From NCBI GenBank assembly GCA_001604565.1, contig LVBV01000005.1, forward strand, positions 1 to 64,000: DNA of 64,000 bases, given 5' to 3'. The position numbers and the translations under genes are program-made. The notes beneath the pieces were generated by a model. It ran no database searches, was not told the DNA's origin, and worked only from the letters and a program-made list of their open reading frames with translations. Source of the stretch: Puniceicoccales bacterium Verruco_01 (GTDB lineage Bacteria; Verrucomicrobiota; Verrucomicrobiia; Opitutales; Oceanipulchritudinaceae). Below are positions 21,779-59,687 of the stretch, piece by piece (within the stretch, counting starts at the first letter, position 1; every line of letters begins with the position of its first letter).

Positions 21779-22729
21779 ATGACGCAAATCGGCGAAATGA
21801 AGATCATCTCGGGCAGCGCGAATCCGCAGCTTGCCAAGGGGATCAGCGAGTACATCGGCACGGAATTGTGCCAGACAACCGTCAAGCGATTCCCGGACGG
21901 GGAGATCTTTGTCAAGATCAACGAGAACGTGCGCGGCAGCGACCTTTTCATCATCAATCCGACCTGCCCGCCGGCCAACGACAACCTCGTCGAGCTTCTC
22001 ATCATGATCGACGCCGCGCGCCGCGCCTCCGCCCAGCGCATCACGGCGGTGCTACCCTTCTACGGGTATGCCCGGCAGGACCGCAAGGACCAGCCCCGCG
22101 TGCCGATCACGGCCAAGCTCGTGGCGAACCTGCTTGTCACCGCGGGCGCCAACCGCGTCCTGACGATGGATCTGCACGCGCCGCAGATTCAGGGCTTTTT
22201 CGACATTCCCGTGGACCACCTCTACGCCTCCAGCGTCTTCTACGGCTACCTTTCCAAGTTCAACTTGAAGGATATGGTGGTCATTTCTCCGGACGTTGGC
22301 GGCCTCAAGATGGCGGCCACATACGCGGACCTTCTCGGCACGAGCTTCGGCTTTGTCGCCAAGCGCCGGACGGACGCCACCCATGTGGAGGCAATGAATC
22401 TTGTGGGCGAGGTCGCGGGCAAGAGCGTTCTGCTCGTGGACGACCTCACCGAATCCGCGGGAACCCTTCAGGCCGCCGCCAAACTCTGCCGCGAGAACGG
22501 CGCGCGCACCGTGCGGGCCTGCGTGACTCACGCCGTGCTCAACGAAAAGGGCTACGAACGCCTTTCCGAGGGCTTTTTGGACGAACTCATCACGACGGAC
22601 TCCACTCCCATCGACCCGCACGGCTTGCCGATCACGGTTTTGAGCGTCGCCGAACTGCTTGCCGAGGCGATCATCCGCATCTGCAACCACCAGTCGGTGA
22701 CGAGTCTCTTCAAGATCAAGGGCTATTAG
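21779..22729 (+). CDS. prs: ribose-phosphate pyrophosphokinase (PRPP synthase)
   Basis: It makes PRPP from ribose 5-phosphate and ATP for nucleotide, His and Trp synthesis. The 316-residue class I enzyme shows RFPDGEI, the flexible-loop block PFYGYARQDRK, the catalytic block TMDLHAPQIQGFF, VVISPDVGG and AKRR. The ribose-5-phosphate loop reads VDDLTESAGTL, where most homologues have Asp-Thr in place of Glu-Ser. The start may be the ATG at 21779 or the one at 21797 (MKIISGSAN), which fits the family N-terminus better. It follows lpxD by about 60 bp, with a small hairpin between. Confidence 0.96.
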   Translation: MTQIGEMKIISGSANPQLAKGISEYIGTELCQTTVKRFPDGEIFVKINENVRGSDLFIINPTCPPANDNLVELLIMIDAARRASAQRITAVLPFYGYARQDRKDQPRVPITAKLVANLLVTAGANRVLTMDLHAPQIQGFFDIPVDHLYASSVFYGYLSKFNLKDMVVISPDVGGLKMAATYADLLGTSFGFVAKRRTDATHVEAMNLVGEVAGKSVLLVDDLTESAGTLQAAAKLCRENGARTVRACVTHAVLNEKGYERLSEGFLDELITTDSTPIDPHGLPITVLSVAELLAEAIIRICNHQSVTSLFKIKGY

Positions 22730-22823
22730 ACGCCACTGGGTGTCGATACCGCCGAAAACGGCGCTTGAGGCCATGGAAGATGGAACGCAGGGGAACGGCG
22801 CTTGTCGTTCCAGAAAACAAACC

Positions 22824-24359
22824 ATGCGAAAACTCAGCATCGCCATTCTGTTCGCGGTCGTGGCGGGGTCGCTGACCCTCTGCGCCGAAAATTCAACCCG
22901 GAAGGCGGAGGCTGTTTCGGCCCCGACCGCAGCCATCGCCACTCCGATCGAGGGCTTTCAGGTGGATCGCACGCCGATCGACCGCTCGAATTCCCACCTG
23001 TTTACGAGCTACGCGCCCGTGCTCTCCAAGGTGACGCCCTCGGTCGTCACGGTGGCGACCTCCACGGTCGTCCGCGTGATGAAGAATCGTGGAGGGGCCG
23101 ACCCGATGCAGGAATTCCTGCGTCGTTACTACGGCCTGCCCTCACCCGACGAGAGCGAGGAAGGCGCAGCACCGCAGCAGGGTGCCCAGAGCGAGCAGCG
23201 CCGCGTGCCCAACGGAATGGGTTCCGGCGTCATTGTGAGCGCCGACGGCCTGATTCTGACGAACAACCATGTGGTGTGCGACCAGTCGGGCGAGGCTGCG
23301 GACGAAATCACCGTGACTCTACCTGACGGACGCGAAATGCCCGCCAAGCTCGTGGGCCGCGATCCGCAGACCGACGTGGCTCTCATCCGCATCGACGCGA
23401 AGAACCTTCCCGCCATCGCCATCGCCGATAGCGACAACCTTCAGGTGGGCGACGTGGTGTTCGCCGTGGGCAATCCCATGGGCCTTTCCCAAACCGTGAC
23501 GATGGGTATCGTTTCGGCGGTGGGACGTTCGCACCTTGGGATTCTCGGCGACCGCGGTTACGAGGACTTCATCCAGACCGACGCCCCGATCAATCCGGGC
23601 AATTCCGGCGGCGCACTCGTCGATGCCCAGGGGCGCCTCGTCGGCATCAACACGGCGATTCTTTCCCGCACCGGCGGCAGCATCGGCATCGGCTTTGCGA
23701 TTCCCTCGAACCTCGCAACAAACATTGCCTCGAACCTGCTCGGCGGCGGCAAGGTGGAGCGCGGGTATCTCGGCGTGACGATCCGGAACCTCGACCCGAC
23801 GCTCGCCGAATCCTTTGGTGTGGAGGGGACGCGCGGCTCGCTCGTTGAAAACGTGGTGCCGGACTCCCCGGCAGCCAAGGCGGGTCTCAAGCGCGGCGAC
23901 GTGATCACCGCCGTGGACGGACGCCCTGTCTCGGGCGAAGGCGACCTGCGCATTTACATCGTGCAGAAACGCCCCGGCAGCGTCATCAAGCTCACCTATG
24001 TGCGCGACGGGAAAACCGCCGACGCCGACGTAACCCTTTCCAGTCTCTCTGGTGCGATGACGGCTGCCGACGGCAGTGTGAGGCTCCTCCCTGGCGTGTC
24101 GGTTCAGGCCGTGAACGAGGAACTGGCCCGCAAATTCAATCTCGACTCCCGCGAAGGCGTGGTGGTGACAAACGTGGAGACCGATTCCGCCTTCGCGCCC
24201 GTCATGGTTCCCGGCATGCAGATCCTTGAGATCAACGGTACCCCGGTGAAGGACCCCGCGCAGGCCGCCTCCCTGATCCGCAAGGACGCCAGCAACCGTC
24301 TCTGGATCAATTTCCGGGGCCGCAGCGGCTTCCTCGGCATCCGCGTTCCGGGCGAGTGA
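22824..24359 (+). CDS. DegP/HtrA-family periplasmic serine protease
   Basis: A 511-residue exported protease/chaperone (Do family). The signal peptide is residues ~1-22 (MRKLSIAILF to TLCAE). The trypsin-like domain has all three catalytic residues: His in LTNNHVV, Asp in QTDVALIRID and Ser in PGNSGGALVD. Two PDZ domains follow (~300-390 with RGYLGVTI, and ~410-500 ending FLGIRV). It degrades or refolds damaged envelope proteins, likely in concert with the SurA-like protein. I placed the start at ATG 22824, where the signal peptide begins. Confidence 0.94.
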   Translation: MRKLSIAILFAVVAGSLTLCAENSTRKAEAVSAPTAAIATPIEGFQVDRTPIDRSNSHLFTSYAPVLSKVTPSVVTVATSTVVRVMKNRGGADPMQEFLRRYYGLPSPDESEEGAAPQQGAQSEQRRVPNGMGSGVIVSADGLILTNNHVVCDQSGEAADEITVTLPDGREMPAKLVGRDPQTDVALIRIDAKNLPAIAIADSDNLQVGDVVFAVGNPMGLSQTVTMGIVSAVGRSHLGILGDRGYEDFIQTDAPINPGNSGGALVDAQGRLVGINTAILSRTGGSIGIGFAIPSNLATNIASNLLGGGKVERGYLGVTIRNLDPTLAESFGVEGTRGSLVENVVPDSPAAKAGLKRGDVITAVDGRPVSGEGDLRIYIVQKRPGSVIKLTYVRDGKTADADVTLSSLSGAMTAADGSVRLLPGVSVQAVNEELARKFNLDSREGVVVTNVETDSAFAPVMVPGMQILEINGTPVKDPAQAASLIRKDASNRLWINFRGRSGFLGIRVPGE

Positions 24360-51991: not shown

Positions 51992-52609
51992 TCAGGCGTA
52001 GATCTCCAGCGACCAAGGAACCTGCCTAGTGGAGACCAGTTCCCCGTACGCTCCGTCATACTCGTTGTACGATGCGGAAAGTGACGCGCGGCTCTCCGTC
52101 TCTTCCGCAGACTTCTCTTCCACTTTCTGTTCCCTGCGCTTTTCCTCAAGGCGTTTTTCATCCTCCTCGTCATCGGAAAGATTTTCGCTCTTGTCGGAAC
52201 CTCCTGCGGTGGTCACAACCGACCATGAGGACATGTTGCCGTCCTCATCAACGGAAACACCGCCCGCGACAAGTTCCATGCCGCGCGCGGCGCATTGGTT
52301 CTGGATCCACTTTTCCGCGTCGGGAATCCCGCTCAGATTCTTTTCGAGCTGGGCTGCAACCGCTGGGTCGCGTGCGGCTTTGTCGAGAAGTTTGGGAGAA
52401 ACTAGAACGTTTCCCCGAACGCCCGACCCCGTCGATCCGCCGGAGGATTCCCCTGCGGAAAGATTGAGATCCGGGAACTTGGTTTGGAGACCCTCAAAAT
52501 AACCGGAGTAGGCGCAGGATTCCTCATCGGCTCGGCTTTTCATCCTGTTCGCGCCGGTAAGTTTGCCGGCATATGTCGGAGAAACGGAATTCAGTGACGG
52601 GATGTTCAT
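51992..52609 (-). CDS. DUF6033-like protein
   Basis: About 205 residues. It opens with a short Ser/Thr-rich part (SLNSVSPTYAGKLTG), then YFEGLQTKFPDLNLSAG, NVLVSPKLLDKAARDPAVAAQLEKNL, GIPDAEKWIQNQCAARGMELVAGGVSVDEDGNMSSWSVV and a charged Lys/Glu coiled coil. This order resembles DUF6033 proteins, which are common in gut Firmicutes and some Verrucomicrobiota and have no known role. No signal peptide is visible. The start is uncertain: ATG 52609 lacks a ribosome-binding site, and in-frame starts up to 52708 would extend the protein by as much as 33 residues. Confidence 0.68.
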   Translation of the reverse strand: MNIPSLNSVSPTYAGKLTGANRMKSRADEESCAYSGYFEGLQTKFPDLNLSAGESSGGSTGSGVRGNVLVSPKLLDKAARDPAVAAQLEKNLSGIPDAEKWIQNQCAARGMELVAGGVSVDEDGNMSSWSVVTTAGGSDKSENLSDDEEDEKRLEEKRREQKVEEKSAEETESRASLSASYNEYDGAYGELVSTRQVPWSLEIYA

Positions 52610-52722
52610 GGGAGAATCATTTGATGCAAGTATCGGCACGTTTTTGCCGTAGCTTGATTCTTTTCCCATCAAATCGCATGTCTGACGCATGTCTTGTTCC
52701 ATCAGCACCGTTCGTCAGGCGG

Positions 52723-54114
52723 CTACGTCATCCGGTCCATCCTTCGGAAGGACGGTTCCACGAGGAAATCGACCGTGACGGTGGGCAGGGCATTCTGCTC
52801 GGGCAGGACCTTGAAAAGCAAAGCATCGATGACGCGCGTCGCGTAACCGGGTTTACCGTCAATCTCCGCCTCCACGCCCGCGTTCATCGCGTAGCAGCCC
52901 TGAGTGAGCAGGCACTGGAAGCGGAAGGAGACCTCGTAGTGACTCCCCGCAGGGACGCTCGCGATGGGTTTGTATGCGGGAAGGGTCCGCGCGCCGCCGA
53001 GCTCCACCCCCATCAGACTCTTGACGAGCATCGCGAAATTCGCCCCCTTCACCTCGCGCTCGAAATCTACTCTATAGCGGTAGGTGTAGAAACCACGCCG
53101 ACGAAGGTGGTTCACGCGGCGACCCTCCTCGTCAACGAGGCGTATGTCGGCGATTTTTGCGCCAAGGGAGTCGTACACCAGTGTACTTTCCGGGGAAAGG
53201 GAGGGATCGAAATGCTCCGGGTGTACCTCTTCGAGGCCTCCCGAGGACGCGTTCGCCTTCACCGGCGCGGCGCTCTCCCTCTCCGCACAAAGCTCCGCCA
53301 AAAGCGCCTCGGCCCGGTCGGCGGGCGCGTGGTTGAAGCGCTGATAGACCGACGCCACGCGCGCGGGCGCTCCGTCTAGGACCAGTCGCCCCTTGTGGAG
53401 CAGGATCGCTCGGTCGCAGAGGTTGAGTACGGGCGTCATGTCGTGCGAGACAAAGAGCACCGTGGCCCCCTTCTGACGCAATGCCTCCATCCGGGCGAAG
53501 CACTTGCGCTGAAAAGGCTCGTCGCCGACCGAGAGGGCCTCGTCCACGATCAGAAGGTCGGGGTCCACCAGCACCTGCACCGCGAAAGCAAGGCGCAGCA
53601 TCATGCCGCTCGAATACGTGCGGACCGGCTGCTCGATGAAGTCCCCGATGTCCGCAAAGGCGGCGATTTCCTCAAAACGTGCCTCCACCTCGTCCTTCGA
53701 GAGCCCGAGGATCGACGCGTTCAGGACCACGTTCTCGCGCCCCGTGAACTCCGGATTGAAGCCCGAGCCAAGTTCCAGAAGAGCCGCCACACGCCCTGCC
53801 ACATGCACGCTCCCTCGCGTCGGTTGCAGGATGCCGCAGATAAGCTGAAGGAGCGTGCTTTTGCCCGAGCCGTTCCGGCCCACGATGCCGACACATTCAC
53901 CACGCCGGATGGAAAGATCGAGGTTCGAAATCGCCGCGAAGTCGCGCCACAGGCCCCGCTCGCGCCGCAGGAGGGCCGAACGCAACCCCCGCGTCGGCGA
54001 CAGGAGCGCGCACAGACGAAGAAGCGGTGACCGCAGCCGTGCCCGCTCGCTGTTCCAAATGCGGTAACTCTTGGAGAGGGCGCGGGCTTCGATGACTGGA
54101 GGGGCGGATTGCAT
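52723..54114 (-). CDS. Wzt-type ABC transporter ATPase with C-terminal glycan-binding-like domain
   Basis: A 463-residue ATPase of the polysaccharide/teichoic-acid export class. The ABC domain (~5-250) has Walker A GRNGSGKSTL, signature YSSGMMLRLAFAV and Walker B LLIVDEALSVGD, and the LWRDFAAISNLDLSI start typical of this class. Residues ~300-450 form a beta-sandwich like Wzt-C, which in E. coli O9a binds the modified end of the O-polysaccharide before export. The Wzm-type permease that should pair with it is not beside it. It is divergent from the GT-C-like gene by 57 bp, so the two may share control. Confidence 0.9.
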   Translation of the reverse strand: MQSAPPVIEARALSKSYRIWNSERARLRSPLLRLCALLSPTRGLRSALLRRERGLWRDFAAISNLDLSIRRGECVGIVGRNGSGKSTLLQLICGILQPTRGSVHVAGRVAALLELGSGFNPEFTGRENVVLNASILGLSKDEVEARFEEIAAFADIGDFIEQPVRTYSSGMMLRLAFAVQVLVDPDLLIVDEALSVGDEPFQRKCFARMEALRQKGATVLFVSHDMTPVLNLCDRAILLHKGRLVLDGAPARVASVYQRFNHAPADRAEALLAELCAERESAAPVKANASSGGLEEVHPEHFDPSLSPESTLVYDSLGAKIADIRLVDEEGRRVNHLRRRGFYTYRYRVDFEREVKGANFAMLVKSLMGVELGGARTLPAYKPIASVPAGSHYEVSFRFQCLLTQGCYAMNAGVEAEIDGKPGYATRVIDALLFKVLPEQNALPTVTVDFLVEPSFRRMDRMT

Positions 54115-54171
54115 TCGCGTGCGTTCTACTGTTACCTCGCAGGAAAACCCCTGTTATTAGATAAAGTTGTC

Positions 54172-56667
54172 ATGCCTTTGCCGCACGCACGCGATCTACC
54201 CCGACTCCCGCACGGCTGCGCCGCGCAGGTGCTCGCCATGGGCGTCGCGGCAGTGGTGTTCGTTCTCTCGCTCGTTTTCTGGACGGGAGCGTTCGCGAAG
54301 GCGATCCATTCGCTGGAAGTGAGCTATGACGCCATGGGAGCGGAGAAGCTGCACCTCGTCCCCGCCGACGAGGACGACACGGAGGAAATCGCCACTTTCC
54401 CGATCGAATACGAGGGCCTGTCGCAGAAGTGGAAGGTGACGGTCACGGCCACGGGTGAAAAGAACGAAAAAAGCTGGGATGCGCAGGTGTGGATCCAGTC
54501 GATCGCCATCGACGGCAAACCCCTGCCGTGGGAGGCGGTTCTCCGCGACGAGGGCTGGCAGGTGGTGGATTCCCCGATGGGCACCAGCGACAAGGCCCTT
54601 GTTTCCTACGGGACGGGCACGGCGCGCAGCCTCCGTTTTGAAGCGGAGGGCGGAGAGCTCAAAATCGTCTATTCGCGCCACCAGTGGACCGGGCGGATGC
54701 GCCTTTCCGTGAACGGGGAGAGCATCGACATCGACACCTGGCGCGAGAACTTCGCCGTGGAATCCTTCGTGCGCCACGCTCCTCCGCTGCCGGAAAGCCG
54801 TGCTGAAAACCGGCACGGCACCCTGCGGATTCCCGCCGGGAATTTTGCCGGAATGTCCCTAAAACTCGCCTCCGAACGCGGGAGCGCCTCCATCAAAACG
54901 GTTTTCCTCGACGGCAAGCCCGTCCGGGTGGGAAAAGACGGAACCCTGGCCCTCCCCGGCTACAACCGCCTCGTGCGTCTTCCTGCGGCGGGAATCTCGC
55001 TAGTCACGGCAATCGCCGCGCCTTTCGTTCTCGTTCTTCTGGCAGGACCTTTCCGCAAACACCCCTTCGCCTCATTCGCGGTCCTTGCGACGATTCTCAA
55101 GCTCTGGATGGTCGGTGCGGACGAGATCGTGGCCACGCCCTACGATGCGACCGGCTACATGCTAAGTGCCCTCAAGGGCTACTGGGTCAGCGCCTTCGAC
55201 GCCCATTCCTACGATCGCCAGCCGGGCTACCCGCTCTTCATCGCGGCGGGGCGTCTCTTCGGGATTCCGCTGCGAGTCTGGATGGAGCTGGCCTACGCGG
55301 GCGGCTGCGCGGCGGTGGCGAGCGCACTGCCCCGCCTGCGCCTGCCGGTGTGGAGCGCCTGCCTCGCCTTTGCGATTTTTCTCTTCAATCCCCTGACGCT
55401 CCCGGCTTTCTCCTTCGCCTATCAGGACGCCGCGTATGCGCCCTTCTTCCTTCTTTTCTTCGGCAGCCTCCTGCATGCTCTGCCTTCCGGCGGGGGACGT
55501 TTGCCGGCCAGTGCGGCGATCGGCCTTTCCGGGGCGCTCGTCTGGAACACACGGCCCGAACACGTGCTCGTCATCGTCCTTTTGGTCGTCTTTGCGCTTC
55601 TGCTTCTTTTTCTCGACCATTCCGAGGGCCTTTCCTTCAAGAAGGCGGACAAGGCGGCCTCAATGGTTCTTCTGCCCGCGATCGCGATCATGCTGGCCGT
55701 CACCCTCACCTTCTCGGGTCTCAACCGCACGGGGCCGATGGGGCTTTTCGAGGCGAGCAACTTTCAGTGCGAAGGCTTCACGGCCCTGTATGACGAGCTT
55801 CTCGCCATCGACCCTGCCAGCCCGGAGCCCTATCACCCTGTGCCCGCCGACGCCCGGGCGAAAGCCTATGCGGCCAGTCCTTCCTTTGCCCTGATGAAGG
55901 ACGCCCTTGAGGGCCCCGTCTTGGCCGAATACGCCCCGATGGCCGCGAAGGGCGCGCATCCAGTGATGGGCGACTACGGCGTTTTCTTCTTCTGGGGCCT
56001 GCGTTTGGCCCCGTGGTACCAGCATGAATGGAACGACGCGGCAGAACTGGACCGCTATTACGCTCAATGCGCCGGGGAGCTGGAAAAGGCGCGGGAAGCG
56101 GGCGTCTATCCCTCGACGAAGGTTCGCGCGAGCTTCATCGACCCCCGCATGAGCCTCTGGCTCCCCTACCTGCCGGAGGGGGCTCTCGCCTACTGGAAGA
56201 TCCTCGCAAACCCCCGGCCCGAATTCCTCTACCCGGAGGACGGAAAGGCCGACGGCACGATCTTCGACCGCGCAGCCCTGCGACGGACAACCCTCTCGAA
56301 GGAGAATCAAGCCGTCTGGAACACAGCGGCCACTCCCGCGCGGCGTTTCGCCAAGGATTTGTGCGCCCGGGTTTCCTCGATCGTCACCTGGGCGGGGACG
56401 ATTCTCGCCCTGCCGCTTCTGGCCATTCTCGCCCTCTCTCTTCGCAAACGCGGGTCCGACACTGAAACCATGCTGGCGGGTGCGTTGTTGATCCTTGCAA
56501 TCGCAGCCTTTGCGAGCCGCTTCGCCATTCTCTCGGCGATGCACGCGGTGGCTTTCGGCGCGGAGACGCGCTACATTCTGCCCGTGGCGGCGTTGCCGGG
56601 CCTCGTCCTCGTGACGGGGCTCGTCACAGCCGCAAGGGCGCATACGGCGCGGAGATTGCTGAAGTAA
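54172..56667 (+). CDS. large polytopic membrane protein, GT-C glycosyltransferase-like
   Basis: An 831-residue protein. One N-terminal membrane helix (~19-42) is followed by a large soluble beta-rich domain (~45-265) with no recognised family. Then come about ten helices (~275-530 and ~700-825), separated by a second soluble segment (~540-700, with FQCEGFTALYDELLAIDP). The Asp/Glu in VGADEIVATPYDATGY and the YDRQPGYPLF block in the first outer loops fit the GT-C fold, in which an acidic residue near the membrane is catalytic and a polyprenyl-phosphate sugar is the donor. The adjacent GT2 may supply that donor. Start ATG 54172 is chosen because earlier in-frame residues overlap the divergent promoter. 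Confidence 0.7.
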   Translation: MPLPHARDLPRLPHGCAAQVLAMGVAAVVFVLSLVFWTGAFAKAIHSLEVSYDAMGAEKLHLVPADEDDTEEIATFPIEYEGLSQKWKVTVTATGEKNEKSWDAQVWIQSIAIDGKPLPWEAVLRDEGWQVVDSPMGTSDKALVSYGTGTARSLRFEAEGGELKIVYSRHQWTGRMRLSVNGESIDIDTWRENFAVESFVRHAPPLPESRAENRHGTLRIPAGNFAGMSLKLASERGSASIKTVFLDGKPVRVGKDGTLALPGYNRLVRLPAAGISLVTAIAAPFVLVLLAGPFRKHPFASFAVLATILKLWMVGADEIVATPYDATGYMLSALKGYWVSAFDAHSYDRQPGYPLFIAAGRLFGIPLRVWMELAYAGGCAAVASALPRLRLPVWSACLAFAIFLFNPLTLPAFSFAYQDAAYAPFFLLFFGSLLHALPSGGGRLPASAAIGLSGALVWNTRPEHVLVIVLLVVFALLLLFLDHSEGLSFKKADKAASMVLLPAIAIMLAVTLTFSGLNRTGPMGLFEASNFQCEGFTALYDELLAIDPASPEPYHPVPADARAKAYAASPSFALMKDALEGPVLAEYAPMAAKGAHPVMGDYGVFFFWGLRLAPWYQHEWNDAAELDRYYAQCAGELEKAREAGVYPSTKVRASFIDPRMSLWLPYLPEGALAYWKILANPRPEFLYPEDGKADGTIFDRAALRRTTLSKENQAVWNTAATPARRFAKDLCARVSSIVTWAGTILALPLLAILALSLRKRGSDTETMLAGALLILAIAAFASRFAILSAMHAVAFGAETRYILPVAALPGLVLVTGLVTAARAHTARRLLK

Positions 56668-56674
56668 TCCTTCG

Positions 56675-57871
56675 ATGACAACCACCCCCAACACACAGGA
56701 CGCCGGAATCGAGGTCTCCGTTGTCATGCCCTGCCTGAACGAGGCGGACACCCTTGCCCCCTGCGTGGACAAGGCGCGCGGCGCGATGGAGAAGGCGGGA
56801 ATCACAGGCGAAGTGATCGTGGCGGACAACGGCTCGACCGACGACTCTGTGGCCATCGCCCTCGCCCACGGCGCAAGGGTGATCCACGTGACGCAGAAGG
56901 GTTACGGCAATGCGCTCATGGGCGGCATCCGCGCCGCGTCGGGGCGCTACGTCATCATGGGCGATGCGGACGACAGCTACGACTTTTCCGAAGTGCCCAA
57001 ATTCGTGGAAAAACTCCGCGCCGGTGCGGATGTGGCGCAGGGCTGCCGGCTTCCCTCCGGCGGCGGAACGATTCTCAAGGGCGCGATGCCCCTCCTCCAC
57101 CGCTACTGGGGGAACCCGATGTTCACGATGATGGTGCGCCACTGGTTCGGCGGCGCGATTCACGACGTGTACTGCGGGCTGCGCGGTTTTTCCGTGGCCG
57201 CGTACAAACGCCTCGCCCTGCGCTGCACGGGCATGGAGTTCGCCACCGAGATGATGATCAAGGCGGCTCTCATGGGGATGCGGATCGACGAGGTGCCGAT
57301 CACCCTGCATCCCGACGGTCGCAAGGCGCACAAGCCGCACCTGCGCACCTTCCGCGACGGCTGGCGGACGCTGCGCTTCTTTCTCCTTTACTGCCCGCGG
57401 CGCCTGTATGTGATGCCCGGTCTCACCCTCTGGGGCCTCGGCGCCTTCTTTTACTTTGTCGTTCTTTCCGGGAGTCCCTTCTTCGGGGTCCGCATGGGGG
57501 CGCACACCCTCCTCGTGGCGAGCCTCTGCGTCCTCATGGGGTACCAAGCCCTGCTCTTCGGGGCGCTGACCAAGATCTTCGCCATCGGCGAGGGCATGCT
57601 TCCGATGGACCGCAAGGCGTCCTTCTTCCTCAAGATCGCGACGCTGGAGCGCGGCCTGCTCCTAGGCTGCGCGGGAACCTTGTCCGGACTGGCGCTCATC
57701 GGCGTTGTTTTGCGGCGCTGGATTGGCGCGGACTTCGGTCCGCTCGACTATGCTTCGGCAATGAAATTTGTCGTGCCCGGAGTCACGCTGGCGGCGCTCG
57801 GCTTCCAGACGATGCTCGCCAGTTTCTTCTTCAGCCTCCTCGGCATGAGGCGCACTCCGGAATACCCATGA
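56675..57871 (+). CDS. family 2 glycosyltransferase, DPM1-like with C-terminal membrane helices
   Basis: A 398-residue enzyme that probably loads a sugar from a nucleotide donor onto polyprenyl phosphate. The GT-A domain (~1-240) shows VVMPCLNEADTL, VADNGSTDDSV, the metal-binding DxD in MGDADDSYDF, and GLRGFSVAAYKRL. Four membrane helices follow (~250-395). This layout is like polyprenyl-phosphate mannose or glucose synthases. It starts 7 bp after the GT-C-like gene and overlaps the next methyltransferase (ATGA), so the block is one operon. Confidence 0.9.
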   Translation: MTTTPNTQDAGIEVSVVMPCLNEADTLAPCVDKARGAMEKAGITGEVIVADNGSTDDSVAIALAHGARVIHVTQKGYGNALMGGIRAASGRYVIMGDADDSYDFSEVPKFVEKLRAGADVAQGCRLPSGGGTILKGAMPLLHRYWGNPMFTMMVRHWFGGAIHDVYCGLRGFSVAAYKRLALRCTGMEFATEMMIKAALMGMRIDEVPITLHPDGRKAHKPHLRTFRDGWRTLRFFLLYCPRRLYVMPGLTLWGLGAFFYFVVLSGSPFFGVRMGAHTLLVASLCVLMGYQALLFGALTKIFAIGEGMLPMDRKASFFLKIATLERGLLLGCAGTLSGLALIGVVLRRWIGADFGPLDYASAMKFVVPGVTLAALGFQTMLASFFFSLLGMRRTPEYP

Positions 57872-58473
57872 ACCCGATCGAGCTTGTCCACGAAAAGAGC
57901 GTCAAGACGCGTCGCGTGAGGGTGCTTGCGGAGATGCTGGCGCCTTTGCTGCCCACGAGCGGACGGGTTCTGGACATCGGCTCCGGCGACGGGGCGATGG
58001 CCGCCGCGATTCTCAAGCGGAAGCCGAATCTGACGATCGAGGGCATCGACACGCTCGTCCGACCGGGAACCGCGATTCCCGTGAGGGCCTTTGACGGCGT
58101 GCATATCGACGCGCCAGACGGCGCGTACGACTGCTGCCTCTTGGTGGATGTGATCCACCACGCGGCGGAACCGGAGGCGCTGCTACGTGAGGCGGCGCGA
58201 GTTTCCTCTGGAAGCCTCGTCATCAAGGATCACCTGCGGGACGGCTTTGCCGCGAGGGAAACGCTGCGCTTCATGGACAGGGTGCACAACGCCCGCTACG
58301 GGGTGTCGCTCCCCTATTGTTACTGGAACAGCGGCGAGTGGCGCGGCAACATTGCGGCGGCGGGACTGACGATCGATCTTTGGTACGACCGCCTCGTCCT
58401 CTATCCCTGGTGGGCCAACTGGATTTTTGGGCGCAATCTGCACGTGCTGACCCGGCTGAAAAAAAAGGTCTGA
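57868..58473 (+). CDS. class I SAM-dependent methyltransferase (glycan block)
   Basis: A 201-residue methyltransferase. Motif I is VLDIGSGDGAMAAAIL (~36-51), the acidic contact is in IEGIDTLVRPG, and motif II is YDCCLLVDVIHHA. The target is unknown; its place after a GT2 and near a Wzt-type ATPase suggests a lipid or sugar acceptor. The gene ends in a run of eight A residues (58459-58466, LKKKV stop), a spot prone to slippage. It is translationally coupled to the GT2 gene by ATGA. Confidence 0.82.
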   Translation: MNPIELVHEKSVKTRRVRVLAEMLAPLLPTSGRVLDIGSGDGAMAAAILKRKPNLTIEGIDTLVRPGTAIPVRAFDGVHIDAPDGAYDCCLLVDVIHHAAEPEALLREAARVSSGSLVIKDHLRDGFAARETLRFMDRVHNARYGVSLPYCYWNSGEWRGNIAAAGLTIDLWYDRLVLYPWWANWIFGRNLHVLTRLKKKV

Positions 58474-58475
58474 GG

Positions 58476-59165
58476 ATGCCTCGTCACGAGAATCTCACCT
58501 ACTGGACCGAGGGGCTTGCCTGCTGCGACGCGGAATGGGAGGCGGCATACAACCGTTTCGAGACGCCCGAAGAAGAAAAGGCGAAGTTTTTACGCCGCCT
58601 GAAGGGCTTGGGCGTCGCGGATCTGCCGCGGCACCTGCGCGTGGCGGACCTTTTCTCGGGCCGTGGCGGGAACCTCGCCGCGCTGGAGGCTCTGGGCTTC
58701 GAGGACGTGTCGGGCGTGGACCTTTCCCCGGAGCTTCTTGGCCGGTACCGGGGACGGGCGAAGCTGTACGTGGGCGACTGCCGCGACCTTCGCTTTGCGG
58801 ACGGCTCGATGGACCTTGTCATCGTGCAGGGCGGCCTGCACCACCTGCCGGAATTGCCGGCGGACCTTTCAAAATGCCTCGCAGAGATGGTGCGAATCCT
58901 TGCACCGGGGGGCATTGTTCTCTTTGTCGAGCCCTGCGACACGCCCTTCCTGCGCTTCGTCCACGCCTGCTGCCACGTCAAGCTCCTGCACCGCGCGTGG
59001 CTGAAGCTGGACGCGCTTGCGGAAATGATCGAGAGGGAGAAGGCGACCTACTTCAACTGGCTCTCCCACAAGCGGGAAATCCGCGCCCTCGCGCGCGAGG
59101 CGTTCGACCCCGTTGTGGATCGCTCGGCGATGGGCAAGTGGTATTTTGTGGGACGCAAAAAGTGA
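58476..59165 (+). CDS. class I SAM-dependent methyltransferase (second of pair)
   Basis: A 229-residue methyltransferase with motif I VADLFSGRGGNLAALE (~52-67), DVSGVDLSPELL, then MDLVIVQGGLHHLPEL and GGIVLFVEP. TGAGG overlapping the preceding stop is its ribosome-binding site, two bases from the ATG. It differs clearly from the methyltransferase before it, so the two are not a recent duplication. The Cys-rich HACCHVKLLHRAW stretch (~165) may be a membrane-near or substrate segment. It is the last gene of the glycan block. Confidence 0.82.
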   Translation: MPRHENLTYWTEGLACCDAEWEAAYNRFETPEEEKAKFLRRLKGLGVADLPRHLRVADLFSGRGGNLAALEALGFEDVSGVDLSPELLGRYRGRAKLYVGDCRDLRFADGSMDLVIVQGGLHHLPELPADLSKCLAEMVRILAPGGIVLFVEPCDTPFLRFVHACCHVKLLHRAWLKLDALAEMIEREKATYFNWLSHKREIRALAREAFDPVVDRSAMGKWYFVGRKK

Positions 59166-59586
59166 GGATCACCGGAGCCCGGGAAACTTCACCAACACCT
59201 TCTTGCCGGGATGATTACTGCATTTCAACTGACCGTGCGAAAGCCCGGAGGAAACGGCATCACCACGGTTCGTGGCAATCCTTTCGACCGGGAAGCGTCT
59301 GCAAACAAGCGTGACGGGGAGGCGGGAAGGGGGTTCGGACGAAATAACCGGCCTTGAGACGCGGTGAATCGGGATTCTCCAAGTCGGAAAGGCTGGTTAT
59401 CGCCAAGAAGCCCCCCGCTTTCCGATGAGAGCCGCATTTGCAGACTCGCCACGGCGCGTCGACGTGCAGGACGGCCTCTTTTCATTTCGATGAACACCCG
59501 ACCGGTCTTTTTCCTTGCAGGAATTCCCCGGGCTGGTTTACTTGCGCTTTCCCCTGAAAAGGGGAATCTGTCGCCAAGCGTGACAG
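59166..59586. other. ~420 bp intergenic region before the tRNA
   Basis: No reading frame here has the local codon bias. The region is G+C-rich. It holds a GNRA-type hairpin at 59549-59566 and otherwise nothing that I can assign. It should contain the tRNA promoter; I cannot point to a firm one. A small RNA is possible but unproven. Confidence 0.4.
59549..59566. repeat. perfect 7-bp hairpin with GAAA loop
   Basis: TTCCCCT-GAAA-AGGGGAA, 21 bases upstream of the tRNA. No T run follows, so it is not a standard terminator. It may lie in the tRNA leader. Confidence 0.5.

Positions 59587-59687
<101 letters not shown>

Follow-up and report, generated by a model that had tools for sequence, protein, structure and literature searches.

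The DNA analysed here, called the window throughout, is the first 64,000 nucleotides of contig LVBV01000005.1 of Puniceicoccales bacterium Verruco_01, and near its right end lies a block of five genes that may belong to a system for exporting and decorating a surface glycan. The genes are referred to as wzt, GIANT, GT2, MT1 and MT2, and their features in window coordinates are as follows.

52723..54114, minus strand, wzt: ATP-binding cassette (ABC) ATPase of a polysaccharide exporter (Pfam ABC_tran, 86.1 bits; Wzt_C, 74.1 bits)
54115..54171: 57-bp gap from which wzt and the plus-strand genes diverge, read from the sequence
54172..56667, plus strand, GIANT: 831-aa membrane protein, probably a GT-C glycosyltransferase, without Pfam or NCBIfam match
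54304..54966, plus strand: N-terminal domain of GIANT, roughly residues 45-265, modelled with low confidence as rich in strands
55039..56664, plus strand: probable GT-C core of GIANT (residues 290-831), from structural ranking and sub-cut-off PMT_2 matches in homologues
56675..57871, plus strand, GT2: probable polyprenyl-phosphate-sugar synthase with C-terminal membrane helices (Glycos_transf_2, 98.1 bits)
57868..58473, plus strand, MT1: soluble S-adenosylmethionine (SAM)-dependent methyltransferase, 201 aa (Methyltransf_23, 54.3 bits)
58476..59165, plus strand, MT2: soluble SAM-dependent methyltransferase, 229 aa (Methyltransf_11, 62.7 bits)

An earlier note on this DNA had described four tightly packed plus-strand genes lying 57 bp divergent from a Wzt-like ATPase, and the open reading frames and their spacing bear this out: a 7-bp gap separates GIANT from GT2, GT2 and MT1 overlap by 4 bp, and MT1 and MT2 are 2 bp apart. 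Pfam also confirmed the Wzt_C domain of the ATPase and placed both proposed methyltransferases in methyltransferase families. No match to a sigma-70-type promoter was found by scanning positions 52600-59500, where 0.8 would be expected by chance.

To follow the neighbourhood of GIANT in other genomes, the only two other genomes of the genus in the set analysed (G001 and G002) were searched, and the order and strands of all five genes were kept in both (loci L031 and L032, respectively). Amino-acid identity to these counterparts was 69% for Wzt, 46-50% for GIANT, 71% for GT2, 64% for MT1 and 61-62% for MT2. The genes adjoining the block differed between the window genome, G001 and G002, and none of the 28 other window genes tried against the 20-kb loci L031 and L032 gave a match at E ≤ 1e-10. 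Relatives of two window genes (21779-22729 and 22740-24359) were found on the same G001 contig as the block, about 15 kb beyond it, in a stretch (L159) that also holds wzm and rho of that genome. Recurrence of all five genes with different neighbours means that the block is more than a chance arrangement, and judged by gene order and similarity it is a conserved unit in its genus. Thus, the co-conservation on which the earlier note made its proposal depend holds within the genus, where the order is kept in three of three genomes including the window's own, and it was not seen outside the genus, where none of the 12 wzt loci fetched showed GIANT, MT1 or MT2. Behind the block, 421 bp away, lies a tRNA-Ser gene (gct; window 59587-59681), considered as a possible integration site, that is absent from L031 and L032. 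On the other side, next to wzt and outside the conserved block, window positions 51992-52708 encode a DUF6033 protein (60.8 bits) with a weak Ntox15 match below cut-off.

The Wzt_C domain (PF14524) covers residues 314-440 of Wzt, at 74.1 bits against a cut-off of 30.4, and it was the only Wzt_C match in the window genome, a 2.5-Mb draft that is 94.69% complete. The closest solved relatives of Wzt are the ABC transporter chains 6amx and 8dku, presumably Wzt of Aquifex. The ATPase had been called an orphan with a missing Wzm. The block itself lacks a permease, yet a Wzm-like permease with an ABC2_membrane match above cut-off was found on another contig of the same genome (C14:9654-10283); its best NCBIfam model was galactan Wzm, at 44.9 bits against a cut-off of 380. 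A GH26 gene and then rho lie downstream of it and an undecaprenyl-pyrophosphatase-like gene lies on the other side, the last two being what we presume from sequence. The relatives of this permease in G001 and G002 (57% and 64% identity) stand directly beside rho. A Wzm-like permease (L004 9483-10415) near rho and away from wzt was thus seen in all three genomes of the genus, and we infer that the C14 permease pairs with the Wzt of the block.

A cluster on contig C26 would supply the polymer-forming enzymes. It contains four group-1 (GT4-type) glycosyltransferases (C26a, b, c and g), a group-1/GT2 fusion (C26f), a protein without family (C26d) and a GT2 with a long repetitive C-terminal part (C26e). 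In G002 the relatives of C26a-g run straight into wzt, GIANT, GT2, MT1 and MT2, and in G001 C26a-f lie on C40 (C26g was not seen there) and the block on C1. Two genomes of genus g4 in the same family have more compact arrangements: G005 carries wzm, C26a, b, c, e and g and wzt inside about 12 kb, and G012 carries wzt followed by C26g, e, c, b and a. By these arrangements, the Wzt on the block's contig, the permease on C14 and the glycosyltransferases on C26 are one locus, wholly or largely, in relatives, and the simplest history would be that an ancestral single wzm-glycosyltransferase-wzt locus became dispersed. A wider scan found Wzt_C in 17 of 24 genomes; within the limits set by draft contigs, Wzt_C and ABC2_membrane were adjacent in seven of the 17 (G006, G007, G008, G009, G013, G023 and G024), on one contig 10-74 kb apart in three (G001, G005 and G012) and without a shared contig in seven, the window genome included, so a separated wzt/wzm pair is not peculiar to the window genome. 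The idea of an orphan ATPase was therefore rejected, because a Wzm-like permease and a glycosyltransferase cluster are present elsewhere in the genome. The earlier note had allowed that such a locus might explain the ATPase fully, and Wzt does belong with it, but the GIANT/GT2/MT module, which was seen beside wzt in this genus only, is left unexplained by that locus. The genome thus encodes parts expected for Wzm/Wzt export: a Wzt_C ATPase, an ABC-2 permease and putative polymer-forming glycosyltransferases that are linked to wzt in relatives. A Wzy_C protein resembling O-antigen ligases is encoded on contig C52, so ligation of the glycan product to lipopolysaccharide (LPS) is possible.

C26e (L150 10437-12533 on contig C26) has 698 aa, and its relatives have 505 aa in G002, 471 in G005, 651 in G001 (an open frame) and, counted from the first start, 815 in G012, the last probably over-extended. 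Its C-terminal part gave helical-repeat Pfam matches to Apolipoprotein and Baculo_PEP_C, both below cut-offs, and a simple heptad test scored 0.85, where shuffled sequences averaged 0.60 and reached at most 0.85; a coiled coil in this part is suggested. Klebsiella chain terminators bear a coiled-coil ruler (PMC11231755). With its length varying between relatives, C26e could serve the linked glycan as chain-length ruler or terminator, and C26e, not MT1 or MT2, may be what sets and marks chain length.

GIANT had been described as a GT-C-like giant. No Pfam family matched it up to E 10 with the HMMER filters on, and hence no PMT_2 or PMT model, and NCBIfam gave no match either. Homologues were found in 14 of 133 relative genomes, its own included, and in the 11 homologue-bearing genomes outside the genus the match starts at residue 292 or later. 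Residues D325, Y329, R349, Y353 and R461 were invariant in 18 sequences. The alignment of GIANT (A4) took in 17 of the 22 homologues from named loci, with L122, L087, L083, L104, L097 and the congeners omitted. Structure prediction covered the whole of GIANT and GT2, and congener sequences are likewise absent from the GT2 alignment. Among five homologues scanned from outside the genus, three had a PMT_2 match under cut-off. After five iterations of the family profile, the weakest members it had gathered (L097, L104, L083 and L087) may reflect drift. When the GIANT model was compared by VIA-align, the 17 best rows spanned residues 284-831 at Z 8.1-10.5, a range below about 13, where Z may reflect merely a shared helical arrangement. 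These rows were Pmt enzymes, oligosaccharyltransferase and translocon complexes, ALG3 and GPI (glycosylphosphatidylinositol) transamidase, and the chains from complexes are, we assume from their length, the GT-C subunits. Row 18 was an unrelated protein at Z 8.1 covering 94 residues. A family profile (A5; 26 of the 36 listed GIANT-family sequences, some of them trimmed) run against the PDB found no GT-C chain, and its best match was cellulose synthase operon protein C at E 0.017. Going by the structural ranking, GIANT is likely a GT-C glycosyltransferase, in keeping with the earlier description, though the model is poor and neither Pfam and NCBIfam nor, at E ≤ 0.001, Foldseek gave a match. In another family of the same order (L042 9210-19252), a giant-family frame precedes GT2, which in turn overlaps the start of a second such frame of 1257 aa; about 6.5 kb beyond is an MT1 relative.

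The N-terminal domain of GIANT is bracketed by hydrophobic segments at residues 12-30 and 267-285 (hydropathy). It had been singled out as an unfamiliar 220-residue domain, and no convincing relative outside the genus was found: Pfam gave none up to E 10, the best match of a profile search of the PDB was a neuraminidase at E 0.95, taken as chance, and a search of 387 genomes of the phylum at E ≤ 0.01 returned only its own genome and one doubtful partial match. The latter, in G317 (E 0.004 over 61 positions), was also rejected as chance, since the frame in L157 reads as what we take to be a PQQ (pyrroloquinoline quinone)/beta-propeller-like protein. By these searches the domain is seen in this genus only. 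By likeness to the carbohydrate-binding module of C. youngae (Citrobacter youngae) ORF12, it may hold the acceptor glycan.

The best sequence and fold relatives of GT2 are polyprenyl-phosphate-sugar synthases, in keeping with the proposal that it is DPM1-like. In the PDB, ArnC and archaeal DPMS came first by sequence, followed by glucosyl-3-phosphoglycerate synthase, chondroitin synthase and GtrB, and the predicted structure, with a predicted local distance difference test score (pLDDT) of 91.5, had DPMS (E 4.9e-14), ArnC and GtrB as its best fold matches. The best NCBIfam model was AglJ of haloarchaeal N-glycosylation (TIGR04182), with which residues 13-301 of GT2 align at 122 bits, far below the cut-off of 325. 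With its synthase relatives and C-terminal membrane helices, GT2 is most likely a polyprenyl-phosphate-sugar synthase. The alignment with DPMS covers 393 columns at a root-mean-square deviation of 12.4 A, so it permits no statement on a shared flipping role.

MT1 carries the motif VLDIGSGDG at residue 34. At E ≤ 0.1 both MT1 and MT2 matched only methyltransferase families in Pfam, with no kinase or coiled-coil match, and a crude hydropathy count found no membrane segment in either, which would place their action in the cytoplasm, ahead of flipping. Their company was examined through GT2, which has at least 584 relatives in the named genome collection, a scan from which near relatives may be missing; among the best 80 loci, 20 contained an MT1- or MT2-like protein (blastp E ≤ 1e-8), with MT1-like proteins in 13 (32-51% identity), MT2-like proteins in 10 (46-55%) and both in 3. 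In all of the 20 except L103 the methyltransferase gene lay within 1 kb of GT2, and a looser profile count gave 24 of 80. When 2.5-kb flanks were required, an MT1/MT2-like gene was within 1 kb of 16 of 52 GT2 genes and of 0 of 66 control open reading frames of the same loci. Multi-spanning frames of at least 380 aa within 2.5 kb were only a little commoner near GT2 (45 of 52) than near control frames (36 of 66). In L074 (2121-3632; a metagenome-assembled genome, MAG, of Gemmataceae) and L082 (10011-11450; a Phycisphaerales MAG), both from planctomycetes, a single open frame immediately following GT2 contains the MT1-like and the MT2-like sequence, and the order in L091 is GT2, MT2, MT1 and a multi-spanning protein. 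Giant-family, GT2 and MT2 genes also occur in the loci of two cultured planctomycetes, Rhodopirellula sp. SM50 (L083) and Stieleria tagensis (L087). In G109, of the same taxonomic order (L186), GT2, MT1 and a giant-family fragment (E 5e-7) at the contig end are adjacent. The titles of the GT2-methyltransferase loci name planctomycetes, Verrucomicrobia, Myxococcota, Acidobacteria and others. A self-made Wzt_C profile matched none of the 80 GT2 loci, which is an underestimate, since L075 was missed; of the two loci checked by Pfam, L075 has Wzt_C (32.7 bits, cut-off 30.4) and L090 does not. L075 (887-3695) comes from a Candidatus Binatia MAG, where only a few bases separate the Wzt bearing Wzt_C from the GT2 relative that comes after it, and the contig ends behind GT2. 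In G115 (L187 896-10341), three multi-spanning frames (655-717 aa) and a 166-aa protein lie near a partial GT2 relative, and this looks like another membrane glycosylation cluster.

Because relatives of MT1 and MT2 adjoin GT2 in several phyla, usually without a Wzt found by the imperfect profile used, the two enzymes more likely serve a GT2/GT-C decoration arm than a cap read by Wzt, and methylation on the donor side is the reading that the sequence comparisons lead us to prefer. We therefore propose, at a probability of about one half, that the block belongs to an ABC-transporter-dependent surface-glycan system whose genes are dispersed, and that it joins to this system a periplasmic decoration arm, by which a methylated sugar is added after export. 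The C26 enzymes would build a polyprenyl-linked glycan in the cytoplasm, and Wzm and Wzt would export it, the C-terminal domain of Wzt reading its finished end. GT2 would load a sugar onto polyprenyl phosphate, MT1 and MT2 would O-methylate this sugar, probably while lipid-linked, on the cytoplasmic side, and the methylated lipid-linked donor would be flipped across the membrane. GIANT would then transfer the donor sugar to the exported glycan in the periplasm, perhaps gripping the glycan by its N-terminal domain, and the outcome would be a methylated-sugar decoration installed after export. More tentatively, the GT2-MT1/MT2-GT-C unit is possibly a widespread and undescribed pathway for methylating a polyprenyl-phosphate-bound sugar before its transfer outside the membrane, which in this genus became joined to Wzm/Wzt, the GT-C enzyme having gained a new glycan-holding domain. 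If this were true, methylated decorations would come as pre-methylated donors, not by methylating the finished polymer.

Several results weigh against this proposal. The whole-length model of GIANT, made from 18 sequences, was poor (pLDDT 46.9), and Foldseek with this model gave nothing at E ≤ 0.001, though ArnT and Pmt ranked first. Soluble glucosyl-3-phosphoglycerate synthases are also among the fold matches of the GT2 model, beginning at E 6.6e-11. No GtrA-family flippase (PF04138) was matched in the window genome, a search that took in this flippase family only and matched in 7 of 14 control genomes. In G012, GT2 and MT2 lie together on one contig, facing each other across about 1.6 kb, and neither of its two wzt genes is on that contig. 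The absence of GIANT, MT1 and MT2 from the 12 wzt loci of other genera was scored at E ≤ 1e-5, with some of the loci cut by contig ends, and only one genus is known to link the GIANT/GT2/MT module to wzt.

The alternative that survives best, although we consider it rather doubtful, is that the GIANT-GT2-MT1-MT2 module decorates something else, such as proteins, the LPS core or another glycan, and merely adjoins wzt. Most GT2-methyltransferase loci elsewhere are without Wzt by the profile used, GT2 and MT2 of G012 are apart from its wzt, and the structures ranked closest to GIANT are protein O-mannosyltransferases and oligosaccharyltransferase complexes; against this, the module stands divergently beside wzt in all three genomes of the genus despite differing surroundings, with the C26 cluster apart in two of them. 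The earlier note had proposed that the block decorates a glycan, caps it by methylation and flags it for export, and decoration is supported. Its capping model, in which one or both of MT1 and MT2 would methylate the polymer at its non-reducing end, stop growth and make the mark recognised by the C-terminal domain of Wzt ahead of export, on the pattern of WbdD and Wzt in E. coli O9a, now seems unlikely. Wzt_C is present, both methyltransferases lie within about 5-6 kb of wzt in three of three genus genomes, and the Binatia MAG has a Wzt with Wzt_C just before GT2; a chain terminator with a Wzt C-terminal module is also the classical pairing (PMC11127046, PMC11231755). But the relatives of MT1 and MT2 beside GT2 in other phyla, usually without a Wzt found, the lack of a kinase or coiled-coil match in either protein and their absence from the 12 wzt loci outside the genus weaken capping and flagging, and the C26 cluster offers another candidate terminator, C26e. 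That GIANT is another multi-spanning protein such as a flippase or ligase is very improbable: the lack of family matches, of a GT-C chain in the profile search of the PDB, of a confident model and of a GtrA flippase in the genome would fit it, but its top structural matches are GT-C and three of the five outside-genus homologues have PMT_2 just under cut-off.

The closest known counterpart of the proposed system is the O-antigen of Citrobacter youngae O1, where an ABC-transporter pathway is combined with three-component periplasmic addition of ribofuranose; it is a precedent for decoration in ABC-transporter systems (PMC11127046). Both have Wzm/Wzt with a glycan-binding module on Wzt. C. youngae O1 also has what GT2 and GIANT probably provide here, an enzyme that charges polyprenyl phosphate and a GT-C enzyme bearing an additional extracytoplasmic domain; this domain is a carbohydrate-binding module in C. 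youngae, whereas in GIANT it precedes the core and has no detected relative. Unlike in C. youngae O1, the charging enzyme here is DPMS/ArnC/GtrB-like, two methyltransferases are added and no flippase was recognised. The block also resembles GtrABC of Shigella and relatives and the galactose-adding three-component system of Klebsiella in pairing a GtrB-like synthase with a GT-C enzyme, in GIANT a probable one, for modifying O-polysaccharide in the periplasm; it differs in that no GtrA-type flippase was detected, methyltransferases are part of the unit and GIANT lacks a Pfam match. With WbdD/Wzt of E. coli O9a and the coiled-coil terminators of Klebsiella it shares the Wzt C-terminal domain, nearby SAM methyltransferases and, possibly, a coiled coil in C26e, whereas MT1 and MT2 are small and single-domain and C26e carries a GT2 and not a methyltransferase (PMC11231755). 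By its Pfam matches at E ≤ 0.1, neither MT1 (201 aa) nor MT2 (229 aa) is a WbdD-type methyltransferase joined to a coiled-coil ruler, with or without kinase. The parts of the block are of known kinds, and what is new, in the sense of not being seen in literature titles, is their combination with two methyltransferases and the N-terminal domain. Among titles on Wzt, GT-C, GtrB, methyltransferase and polyprenyl-phosphate no description of a GT2-MT1/MT2-GT-C unit was found, which is not proof of absence.

If the proposal is right, the block would offer a testable origin for the O-methylated side sugars of bacterial surface glycans, and functions could be assigned to the two methyltransferases found repeatedly next to one GT2 family across phyla. 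A Wzt that looks orphaned can be part of a locus spread around the chromosome, and in this lineage the whole genome should therefore be searched for exporter and decoration genes.

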